Assembly (NCBI GenBank): GCA_029263415.1
Contig: JAJCXN010000044.1
Location: 62,001 to 126,000 of the forward strand
Source: Acidobacteriota bacterium
Lineage (GTDB): Bacteria; Acidobacteriota; Thermoanaerobaculia; Multivoradales; Multivoraceae
Direction of reading: 5' to 3'
Length of the DNA stretch: 64,000 nt
The translations under genes were made by a program, and so were the position numbers. The notes beneath the pieces are model-generated. The model was not told where the DNA came from, searched no databases, and saw only the letters and a program-made list of their open reading frames with translations. Positions 18,686 through 42,423 of this stretch are shown in pieces. Every line of letters begins with the position of its first letter. Within the stretch, counting starts at the first letter, position 1.

Positions 18686-18822
18686 GGTGTGTCGTCTTGG
18701 GGTTGCGTTGGTTGGATGAGAGGTGAGGTGTAGGCGCTCTCGTGCAGTGTATCTAGAGTCGGCAGGTGCGGGCTACATGGCTTGTACGTGTGGGGGGGCT
18801 CCGTGGTTCCGGGTGGCGGCTG

Positions 18823-18858
18823 CGAGGACGGCGAGGACGGCGAGGACGGCGAGGACGG
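18823..18858 (+). repeat. 9-base tandem array at the edge of repeat copy 1
   Basis: Four perfect units of CGAGGACGG stand immediately before the GCACAGCATGAGC start of copy 1. The corresponding place in copy 2 carries a different 9-base unit. Confidence 0.9.
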
Positions 18859-19200
18859 CGGCACAGCATGAGCGGAATGCGTCTTCGCTCCTTTCGGCGG
18901 ATCGGGATCCCCTCTGGGGGCACCGGCTCCGACCTTGTGCTGAGCGGCTAGGCGTCCCACGGGAGGCTTCGCACTGGTCTCGCCTGCCACTCCCACGGGA
19001 CGCTTCGCAGTCAGTCGCCCGCGACGCGATGGGCTTCTCGATTGGTGCTGTTGAAGGGCTCCTTCGCGAGCTGCCCCCGTCGGGGACGCCCTCACCGCCT
19101 TCGTCGCTAGTGACGCTGGGCCGTGCGGCGATTGCGAAGTGGCATCTAGGGATGCGGTGGCAAAGGGGAGAGGTCTTGCCGGGAGAGGAAAGTGGGAGGC

Positions 19201-19256
19201 CTGGGCTGCGTGAACGAAACCCACAAGCGGGTGAGGGCTCCGTCCACGCAGCCCAG
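19201..19256 (+). other. Conserved hairpin in repeat copy 1
   Basis: CTGGGCTGCGTG (19201-19212) and CACGCAGCCCAG (19245-19256) are perfectly complementary around a 32-base loop. That loop itself holds an ACCC/GGGT mini-stem. The identical 12-base arms recur in copy 2 at 21254-21309. Confidence 0.75.
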
Positions 19257-19281
19257 ACCAAGTGTTCCCGAGGATCGGCTC

Positions 19282-19299
19282 GTTTGGCTAACGCCAAAC
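19282..19299 (+). other. Second conserved hairpin in repeat copy 1
   Basis: GTTTGGC and GCCAAAC pair perfectly around TAAC. Copy 2 has the same 7-base arms around the different loop GCA (21217-21233), so the stem is kept while the loop has changed. Confidence 0.75.
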
Positions 19300-19381
19300 T
19301 CGGGGCCAGAGCAGGACACGCTGGTCGACGCCGACGCCGATATCAAGAGACGAGGGCCGGCTCCGCAGTCCCCATCGACAG

Positions 19382-19451
19382 CGACCTCGACCTCGACCTC
19401 GACCTCGACCTCGACCTCGACCTCGACCTCGACCTCGACCTCGACCTCGAC
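19382..19451 (+). repeat. Hexanucleotide microsatellite (CGACCT)n
   Basis: Eleven perfect CGACCT units plus a partial one, with no interruptions, between repeat copies 1 and 3. Perfect repetition suggests recent expansion or contraction by slippage. In a forward frame it would encode Asp-Leu repeats, but no gene is supported there. Confidence 0.95.
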
Positions 19452-19551
19452 AGAACGATCCCCGGTACCGGAACGAAAGCGCCCAGTACCAACGAGTTCT
19501 CAAGCCGAGACGCGGAGCGCGAGGAGGATAAGGGCCCATCTGTGGGGGCTC

Positions 19552-19790
19552 CACTTCCCACACTCGGCAAACCCTTCCCCCTCTGCCACTACGCCCCTAC
19601 ATTCCGCGATCGGACGCGCTGTCCTGCCCAACTTCACTAGCGACGAAGGCGGTGGAGGCTTCCCCCGAGTCGGCAGCCTGTGCCACGGGGGCTTGGCACC
19701 GAGGTGCCCTTCACAAACGCGCTTGAGGCCCGCCACGCTGCGGGCGACGAGTACGCAGGCAAGGCCCGCTACCCGCTCAAGGGAAGGCCG
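19552..19790 (-). repeat. Intergenic repeat element, copy 3 (diverged, partial)
   Basis: In plus-strand reading this aligns with copy 2. Shared landmarks are CTTCCCAC[T/A]CTCGGCAA, CTTCACTAGCGACGAAGGCGG, CCCTTCA[A/C]ACA and GCGGGCGAC, but with many substitutions and without the two hairpins. It is inverted relative to copy 1, so copies 1 and 3 face each other around the CGACCT array. Confidence 0.65.
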
Positions 19791-19916
19791 CGGGCGGCAC
19801 CAACGAGGGCGGCTCACCGTCCTGAGTACGCTGAATTGTGGGAACAGAGCAGTCTTGAGCTAGAGCTGAGGAACTCGCGGCGGCTAGGACAAGAAGAGTG
19901 ATCGAAAGAATGCGCA

Positions 19917-20567
19917 TCAATCAACCAGCCCTGGAGGCGCCTTCACCAACGTGGTCCAATCGACTCCTGATACGTGCTGATCGCCTCCCAACGGGTAGCC
20001 GAGAGCCTCTTCCTTCACAAAGACCATGTGCCCTGGTGCAGCCCACATTCCCTCCGAGGGCCACATGTACTCGTACGGTGCCAGCAGGGTGTCACCGAGC
20101 TCCGGTAAACGATTCAGTCGAACCTGAGAACAAACCGTGTAGGACGATCCGATGGTGATCTGGACACCGGGAAGCAGGAGCAAAAAGTCGTCCTTGCCTC
20201 GCTCGGTGGGCGAGACCTCTAACAGGAGCACCGGCCGTCTATTGTGCAGTCCTAGTTGAATTCCCTCCACGGAAACAACCGCGAACTCCTTCGCTTTCGG
20301 CCAGTCTTGGCCTAGGCGCACTCCACCCACCACACCGTCGCAGGACCTCCCAACTCCACCAGCAATAGAAACAGCCGATTGAGTTTCCTGCCCCGTTCCA
20401 ACCTCGGAAGCCGTCGAGTGGGCGAAGTTCGAAAACAGGTCGTTAACCGTTTGCTGATCAAGAGTTGGGCCGAGTGGCTGCCAGTACTGAAACTCTTGCG
20501 GAAGATCTGGCATCGCGCAAGAGAAAAGGCAGCTAGCGGAAAGCAGTGTTGCAACAAGTCGAAACAT
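19917..20567 (-). CDS. Predicted lipoprotein of unknown function
   Basis: A 216-residue orphan inside the repeat island. MFRLVATLLSASCLFSCAMP is a typical lipoprotein signal with a lipobox ending in Cys (LFSC). The mature part contains SIAGGVGRSCDGVVGGVRLG, RRPVLLLEVSPTERGKDDF and LLAPYEYMWPSEGMWAAP. I do not recognise the family. I chose the inner ATG at 20567 over one at 20591 because it opens the signal peptide directly. No partner gene is adjacent; it appears to be carried in the island. Confidence 0.65.
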   Translation of the reverse strand: MFRLVATLLSASCLFSCAMPDLPQEFQYWQPLGPTLDQQTVNDLFSNFAHSTASEVGTGQETQSAVSIAGGVGRSCDGVVGGVRLGQDWPKAKEFAVVSVEGIQLGLHNRRPVLLLEVSPTERGKDDFLLLLPGVQITIGSSYTVCSQVRLNRLPELGDTLLAPYEYMWPSEGMWAAPGHMVFVKEEALGYPLGGDQHVSGVDWTTLVKAPPGLVD

Positions 20568-20679
20568 CGAAGCCCCCAGAATGTGGTGCAAGAATGTAGT
20601 GCCGTCTCGGCTGACAGACGGTAGTAGAGAAACCTAGAGCGAACCGCCTCGCGACTAGCACCAACGTCAGCATAGCTAG

Positions 20680-21091
20680 CTACCCCACCTTCTGAAAATT
20701 CTCGAACACCAACTCACGCCAAAGCTCTCAAGAAGCCCCATCGGCTTCCCTTTCAGGTTCGTCCACTCGAACTCGAAGAGGTTCTCCTGGAGCAACTCCT
20801 CGGCCGAGGCAAGGAGAAACAAGTTTGCTGCGACTTCAGCAACGCAGCGCTGAGCAGCCTTCCTGAGGAGGCTTGCGATCCTGCCCGGGTTCTGGGGGTC
20901 GATCGCAAACAGAATCTGCGGTTAACGAAGGCTAGGCGATGGTCGAGGTTCCCCGCTGTTGATGCTCCCTGAGCCTCGGCCTTGTCCCGGTTGACCCAAT
21001 GCACATTCGACTCGTGGTAGAGCACGAGCGTCTTCGTGATCGTCGACTTGTAGAGGTTGGAGGATGGAATTGCTCCGTGCCTCGCCACCAC
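20680..21091 (-). pseudogene. Decayed gene remnant with a frameshift
   Basis: On the minus strand one frame gives TLVLYHESNVHWVNRDKAEA and LDHRLAFVN up to about 20930. The adjacent frame then gives QILFAIDPQNPGRIASLLRK, LFLLASAEELLQENLFEFEW and LKGKPMGLLESFGVSW before a stop near 20680. Both halves have natural-looking composition, while each frame becomes Ser/Arg-rich on the far side of the junction. This suggests a frameshifted gene near 20930. I cannot identify the family. The parent start is not clear, and the remnant may also be truncated. Confidence 0.45.
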
Positions 21092-21216
21092 TCTAGAACT
21101 AGCAAACGGGCTTCTATGTCAGCTTGGCTATGGGCAACGACCGTTCAATGTACATCCTCGTCGAGGGAAGCGCCCTGAGCGCTACCACCAGAGTTCGCTG
21201 CTAGCTGAAGGCCCGA

Positions 21217-21233
21217 GTTTGGCGCAGCCAAAC
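21217..21233 (+). other. Short conserved hairpin in repeat copy 2
   Basis: GTTTGGC and GCCAAAC pair around GCA. It is the counterpart of 19282-19299 with a changed loop. Confidence 0.7.
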
Positions 21234-21253
21234 CGACCTCCGGAACACTTGGC

Positions 21254-21309
21254 CTGGGCTGCGTGGACGGAGCCCTCACCCCCTTGTGGGTTTCGTTCAC
21301 GCAGCCCAG
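21254..21309 (+). other. Long-loop hairpin in repeat copy 2
   Basis: CTGGGCTGCGTG and CACGCAGCCCAG pair perfectly around 32 bases, as in copy 1 (19201-19256); the arms are identical in both copies. Confidence 0.75.
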
Positions 21310-21619
21310 GCCTCCCACTTCCCACTCTCGGCAAGACCTCTCCCCCTTTGCCACCGCATCCCTAGATGCCCAGATCGCAATCGCCGCACGACCCAGCTTC
21401 ACTAGCGACGAAGGCGGTGAGGGCGTCCCCGACGGGGGCAGCTCGCGAGGGAGCCCTTCAACACAACACTTCGAGAAGCACACCGCGCCGCGGGCGACTG
21501 AGTGGCAGGCAAGGCCCCGCCTAGCCGCTCGAGACAAGGTCGCAGCCGGTGCCCCCAGAGGGGATCCCGATCCGCCGAAAGGAGCGAAGACGCACCACGC
21601 TCATGCTGTGCTTACTCGC

Positions 21620-21718
21620 AGCGCCCTGAGCGCCATCAGCGCCATCAGCGCCATCAGCGCCATCAGCGCCATCAGCGCCATCAGCGCCATCAGCGCCATC
21701 AGCGCCATCAGCGCCAGA
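21620..21718 (+). repeat. 9-base tandem array (AGCGCCATC)n directly after the envC-like gene
   Basis: Nine perfect AGCGCCATC units (21629-21709) are flanked by imperfect units AGCGCCCTG and AGCGCCAGA. There are no spacers, so it is not CRISPR. Read on the minus strand it would encode Gly-Ala-Asp repeats, but the envC-like stop lies just before it. Confidence 0.95.
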
Positions 21719-42252: not shown

Positions 42253-42423
42253 TTGACTTCTTCTAGCAGGCCGTGGTGAAACTCTCGTGGGCTGAGTTTG
42301 AGCGCCGTCCCCACGGGAGGCTGGCGCACCACGAACTGACTGCCCAGATCCCCGCGCTCAATCCCGCGCGAGTTGCAGGACGGCTACCTGGATGCCCATC
42401 CAGCGCCCAGACTCTGAGCGCAG

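Follow-up and report, generated by a model that had tools for sequence, protein, structure and literature searches.

The window analysed here, a 64-kb stretch of DNA from an Acidobacteriota genome, carries an envC-like gene and a ctpA gene separated by an unusually wide gap. This gap spans 3,035 nt in the window, compared with 13-188 nt in 11 relatives, where the distance was taken between the final residue of the envC alignment and the opening residue of the ctpA alignment (L057, 13; L058, 97; L059, 188; L060, 55; L061, 37; L062, 26; L063, 15; L064, 124; L066, 15; L078, 13; L079, 134). We searched 24 relatives, 23 of which gave the locus; envC lies beside ctpA in 11 of these 23, and the other 12, which show no envC within the 1.5-kb flank, are uninformative.

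An initial annotation had placed a three-copy element in this gap, and the analysis bears this out: copies 1 and 2 are mutual inverted repeats, with matching blocks of 135 nt (90% identity), 112 nt (94%), 94 nt (93%) and 28 nt (100%), and copy 3 is recovered by genome matches. Copy 1 (positions 18880-19300, plus strand, from inverted-repeat and genome matches) comprises an X-type core, a big hairpin and an A-type end hairpin. Its core includes a long-range stem, found by alignment folding and positioned from the sequence, whose 5' side lies at 18896-18922 and 3' side at 19072-19099 (both plus strand). The arm alignment also places two 20-bp insertion units in this copy on the plus strand, at position P1 (18955-18974), where most other arms lack it, and at position P2 (18991-19010). 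The big hairpin, H1, occupies 19198-19259 and pairs best on the minus strand, with G-U wobbles, and the end hairpin follows at 19282-19299 (strand not assigned). Copy 2 (21210-21594, minus strand, from the same two kinds of match) is a single X-type arm with an A-type end hairpin and no 20-bp units; its H1 folds at 21251-21312, where the structured strand is plus. Copy 3 (19551-19809, minus strand), described previously as diverged, is genuine, matching another copy of the family at 85% identity over part of its length. It is a truncated Y-type partner arm (type read by eye), tail to tail with copy 1. The three copies thus amount to one pair (copies 1 and 3) and one unpaired arm (copy 2).

The annotated details held up with one correction. 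The hairpin described as having 12-base arms is indeed kept, yet its size was understated, as copy 2 has 25 paired positions; the smaller hairpin, with its loop change from TAAC in copy 1 to GCA, is as described. Tandem Repeats Finder confirmed a different 9-base tandem unit at each full copy, namely GCGAGGACG repeated 4.3 times outside copy 1 (18822-18860, plus strand) and CAGCGCCAT repeated 10.9 times outside copy 2 (21619-21716, minus strand), the latter array stopping four bases short of the envC-like gene. The same program detected a 6-base array (CGACCT, 11.7 repeats; 19382-19451, strand not assigned) in the stretch separating copies 1 and 3. No transposase reading frame was seen in the element region, in line with the earlier report. 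The most gene-like frame there, from the gene calls, lies between the arms, encodes 224 aa that look lipoprotein-like by eye (19917-20591, minus strand) and has no Pfam match; it is perhaps cargo, or else a gene with no connection to the element. Consensus searches of the locus gave no promoter-like sites, and terminator-like sites numbered five against 2.3 expected.

A lineage-restricted repeat family

BLAST searches of the host genome (6.89 Mb in 60 contigs) with copy 1 and then with a Y-type copy recovered arms or fragments at 23 places on 11 contigs (C15, C26, C37, C38, C41, C44, C46, C51, C54, C55 and C56), once fragments had been merged and hits to the 20-bp unit alone or to the H1 palindrome read backwards had been excluded. 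This number of matching places excludes chance as the source of the repeat. It also rules out a simple local duplication, the outcome for which the initial annotation had named a lack of further copies and of covariation; both were looked for, and both were found. A further fragment beyond the 23 places, on contig C5, consists of an array leading into the first part of an arm. Identity between copies is mostly 69-88%, and the copies differ by 1-nt and 20-nt indels, which argues against a protein-coding gene; that reading was rejected.

With copy 1 as the query, none of 40 relatives and none of 147 other genomes of the class gave a match. The 21-base core pattern occurred in nine stretches of the genome_contigs collection, whose listed similarity to the arms covers only 21-36 bp, and had no match in the viral_contigs collection. 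Plasmid and phage matches were confined to query bases 1-36, that is, to the array, and on this evidence a distribution extending to other bacteria, phages or plasmids was rejected. The repeat family is real, genome-wide and restricted to its lineage.

The other copies adjoin ordinary genes, including those for an FtsX-type permease, an AMP-binding enzyme, MeaB, an aldehyde dehydrogenase and a PLD enzyme. By simple gene calls, which covered 19 of the 23 arms, the outer end of the arm lies at the 3' end of a gene in 11 of 19 cases and near a gene start in the other eight. Outer arrays recur as well: in eight of 19 copies the 98 nt outside the core include a tandem array 20 nt or longer, against two of 262 intergenic control windows and three of 2,761 control windows overall (20 of the 23 places entered this test, one lacking a recognisable core start, and the control windows overlap one another). 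Arrays of the hexamer GATGGC were also seen at four places away from the listed arms (L096, L097, L098 and L099), the one on C5 being the array that leads into a partial arm.

Arm anatomy and pairing

Each arm is about 0.43 kb long and follows a common order: an outer array (in some copies), a variable joint, the core, a segment of low conservation, the 62-nt hairpin H1 and the inner end. The core opens with GCGTCTTCGCTCC, and the long-range stem joins its start to its middle. Two core types (X and Y), two versions of the H1 loop and two types of inner end (A, GTTTGGC..GCCAAAC; B, CTCGACGCTGCGCGTCTCG) are combined variously from copy to copy, which makes the copies mosaics.

The arms lie between genes, for the most part as mirror-image pairs. 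Where two arms share a contig, they are arranged tail to tail in five of five cases (copies 1 and 3, and pairs on C38, C41, C46 and C26), never head to head or in direct orientation, with roughly 0.1-0.24 kb between them. The inner end of copy 3 is lost; the four readable pairs, scored by eye, each join one A end to one B end. This rule suggests that the pair rather than the arm is the unit, and a complete unit is probably a pair of about 1 kb. We infer a sixth pair from the end of C55 and the start of C54, whose nearly identical arms are both cut at the same base by the contig boundary. At four pairs, inspection by eye recognised neither a target-site duplication nor a fixed terminal motif, the array-rich ends blurring the boundary. 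Since copies are mostly only 69-88% alike, nothing points to recent activity, with the possible exception of the C55/C54 pair.

Conserved secondary structure

Covariation was examined in an alignment of the 13 fuller places among the 23. Over a structure of 56 pairs, 97.0% of cells are paired, and double changes occur in seven pairs (12 cells), a count matched by none of 500 shuffles; slid structures gave at most one such pair. Further pair types were not more numerous than in shuffles, 410 of 500 of which reached the same count. RNAalifold scored the minus strand at -103, against -50 (s.d. 5) for 30 column-shuffled controls, and the plus strand at -90, against -59 (s.d. 5); its covariation term by itself lay within about two s.d. 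of the column-shuffled controls. The hairpins are thus kept through compensatory changes, with the qualification that the X/Y double changes may represent one event inherited many times. Together with the 23 places in the genome, these changes support the initial reading of a non-autonomous mobile or structured RNA-like element.

In the arm's minus strand, H1 contains 276 Watson-Crick, 36 G-U, one A-C and 12 other cells. This asymmetry, drawn from five pair columns, suggests that one strand acts in single-stranded form, as RNA or DNA. The long-range stem shows no G-U/A-C asymmetry between strands (2 versus 2). The minus-strand fold of copy 1 outscores all of 100 shuffles (z = -3.66), and its plus-strand fold is ordinary (z = -1.67). 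A search of the 64 kb against Rfam yielded no family at gathering score and only chance-level matches at E ≤ 5. A known RNA family was rejected on this result; the initial annotation had likewise matched the element to no described family.

A nested 20-bp unit

A unit of 20 bp, GTGCGAAGCSTCCCGTGGGA or a close variant of it, occurs in either orientation at one or more of three positions within arms, and in the arm alignment the arms without it miss exactly those 20 bases. A 19-base pattern allowing at most one mismatch occurs 31 times in the host genome, compared with no occurrence of a reversed control, and the 20-base pattern is present in one of 148 genomes of the class, that of the host. 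The unit also interrupts decayed Y1-transposase genes. At one position it is filled in L086, L087, L089 and L094 and empty in L082, L085 and L090; at a second it is filled in L087 and L091 (L093 aligned too poorly to be scored as filled or empty). Being 20 bp long, it shifts the reading frame on insertion into a Y1 gene. Precise presence or absence of about 20 bp in otherwise homologous sequence, the hallmark of small dispersed repeats, is therefore seen at three arm positions and two Y1-gene positions, and two further intergenic repeat families host the unit too. It appears to have entered many sites cleanly and looks like mobile DNA unable to move unaided. The idea that it forms a stable hairpin was dropped, as standard DNA parameters give no stable fold.

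Among the other repeats encountered, a third intergenic family hosting the unit is found at L080 (655-785) and its relatives, and part of it recurs at a spacing of about 88 bases at the end of C56. Another palindromic intergenic family, with ends AGCAGCC..GTGGTGAAACTC, has a copy in the window at 42265-42377, between two plus-strand frames, and many further matches in the host genome.

Y1 transposases in the host genome

An obvious suspect as the mover of a hairpin-based element is a Y1 (HUH) transposase. The host genome has 41 matches to such enzymes, many of which finish at contig ends, and the family is probably high-copy. They resemble RAYT and TIRYT types (for example L103, L105 and L111-L129), and their copy number is probably unusually amplified. 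No Y1 copy flanked by arms was found among the Y1 loci examined, where copies broken at contig ends could hide a case, and no Y1 match adjoins any arm among the arm loci examined. In these loci, Y1 flanks and arms have only the 20-bp unit in common, and the arms were rejected as the ends of these transposases on that basis.

Beside one decayed Y1 gene, L082 carries a group II intron maturase domain at 994-1500 (Pfam GIIM, E = 2e-18). A group II intron was considered as an identity for the arms and rejected: a maturase fragment is present on C8, yet the arms match no Rfam model.

Comparison with known repeats

The organisation is best read as resembling REP/BIME dimers, only far longer, and the nearest parallels are the described REP dimers and TIRtrons (PMC3733652). 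REP dimers, BIMEs and REPINs are described as GTAG- or CGTC-tagged repeats of 20-40 bp, with compensatory pairing in REPINs at that smaller scale (PMC3733652, PMC3116915). They share with the arms a non-coding, mostly intergenic and inverted arrangement, often as tail-to-tail pairs of unlike partners, together with compensatory changes and, for some REP-type repeats, species specificity (PMC3733652, PMC3116915). The five same-contig pairs display this inverted arrangement with compensatory pairing. The arms differ in being about 430 bp long, not palindromic units of 20-40 bp, in having no established GTAG- or CGTC-type tag and in the 23 places found; moreover, no RAYT gene flanked by the repeat was seen in the examined loci, where contig ends inside Y1 genes could conceal one. 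Long intergenic repeats arranged as unlike inverted pairs would enlarge the REP/BIME theme about tenfold in size. TIRtrons and the dispersed TIR families of TIRYTs likewise combine dispersed long inverted repeats with a genome rich in Y1 transposases (PMC3733652). Unlike TIRtrons as characterised there, no examined Y1 gene has arms as its ends, with the same reservation for broken copies (PMC3733652).

Long inverted arms were observed, and no autonomous transposon sharing them was found. MITEs and foldback elements are non-autonomous, inverted-repeat and intergenic. The arm pairs would be like them in all three respects; they differ in arms that are very long relative to the middle and in several hairpins per arm, and no target duplication was visible at the four pairs inspected. 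An open-access literature search for foldback elements in bacterial genomes found nothing. For the 20-bp unit, the parallel is with small dispersed repeats such as SDR5, which Elhai et al. reportedly described in Nostoc in 2008. It is set apart from SDR5 by description, not by sequence: the host differs, and no HIP1-like target was noticed. It resembles SDR5 in inserting precisely, including inside other repeats (PMC4390886). Clean filled and empty sites within one genome offer an opportunity to study how DNA too short to code can multiply, and the paired element and its nested unit could be tested directly with a few strains of the lineage.

Interpretation

We consider the element to be, with fair probability, a lineage-specific, non-coding, non-autonomous mobile repeat that was copied into intergenic gaps, with a separate inserting unit of 20 bp. 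The observations behind this reading are the copy number, the pairing rule, the mosaic make-up, the compensatory changes, the wide envC-ctpA gap and the precise presence or absence of the 20 bp; from them we infer mobility, a single-strand step, a helper enzyme and an origin of single arms as leftovers. The unit would be about 1 kb long, with two unlike arms of about 0.43 kb facing each other tail to tail across 0.1-0.24 kb of spacer, one bearing the A hairpin end and the other the B end, and its outer ends would tend to carry GGTGGCGATGGC-like tandem arrays. Such a pair would have spread by copying into gaps between genes, with an enzyme encoded elsewhere reading the hairpins while they are single-stranded. 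Single arms, copy 2 among them, would be remnants of pairs, recombination among copies would mix X and Y cores and hairpin loops into mosaics, and the 20-bp unit would separately have inserted cleanly into some arms and other repeats. It is a long shot that the pair is a new kind of mobile DNA acting through single strands, in which the A and B halves are both required and which serves as a landing place for a 20-bp unit spreading by itself without target duplication, one enzyme moving both in trans.

As a special case of the mobile-repeat reading, the arms might be non-autonomous partners of the amplified Y1 family, comparable to the TIRs of a TIRYT- or RAYT-type element. HUH transposases act on hairpins in single-stranded DNA (PMC6006769), and long TIRs flanking RAYT-type genes, as well as dispersed TIR families, have been reported (PMC3733652). 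With 41 Y1-like matches, many of them truncated where a contig stops, the genome has candidate enzymes; since no examined Y1 copy has arms as flanks and Y1 matches are absent within the arm loci, we regard this partnership as possible, if on the unlikely side. The pairing evidence could instead reflect a structured RNA that each arm encodes or acts as on the strand running from the pair centre outwards, such as an element at gene ends that undergoes processing or causes termination, with spread being secondary. Compensatory changes, wobble pairs on one strand, the strong minus-strand fold of copy 1 and the 11 scored arms whose outer end faces a gene 3' end all fit such an RNA. The same pairing signature is, however, expected from single-stranded DNA, the plus-strand fold is ordinary, Rfam has no match above chance level, the locus has no promoter-like site and eight scored arms face a gene start, so that an RNA function as the primary explanation appears unlikely. 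Recombination or gene conversion between intergenic regions, with no transposition at all, would account for the mosaic combinations of X/Y, A/B and loop versions and for the near identity of the C55 and C54 arms; we think it very improbable as the sole process, because conversion alone would not seed a first copy at an unrelated site such as the envC-ctpA interval, which measures 13-188 nt in the scored relatives.
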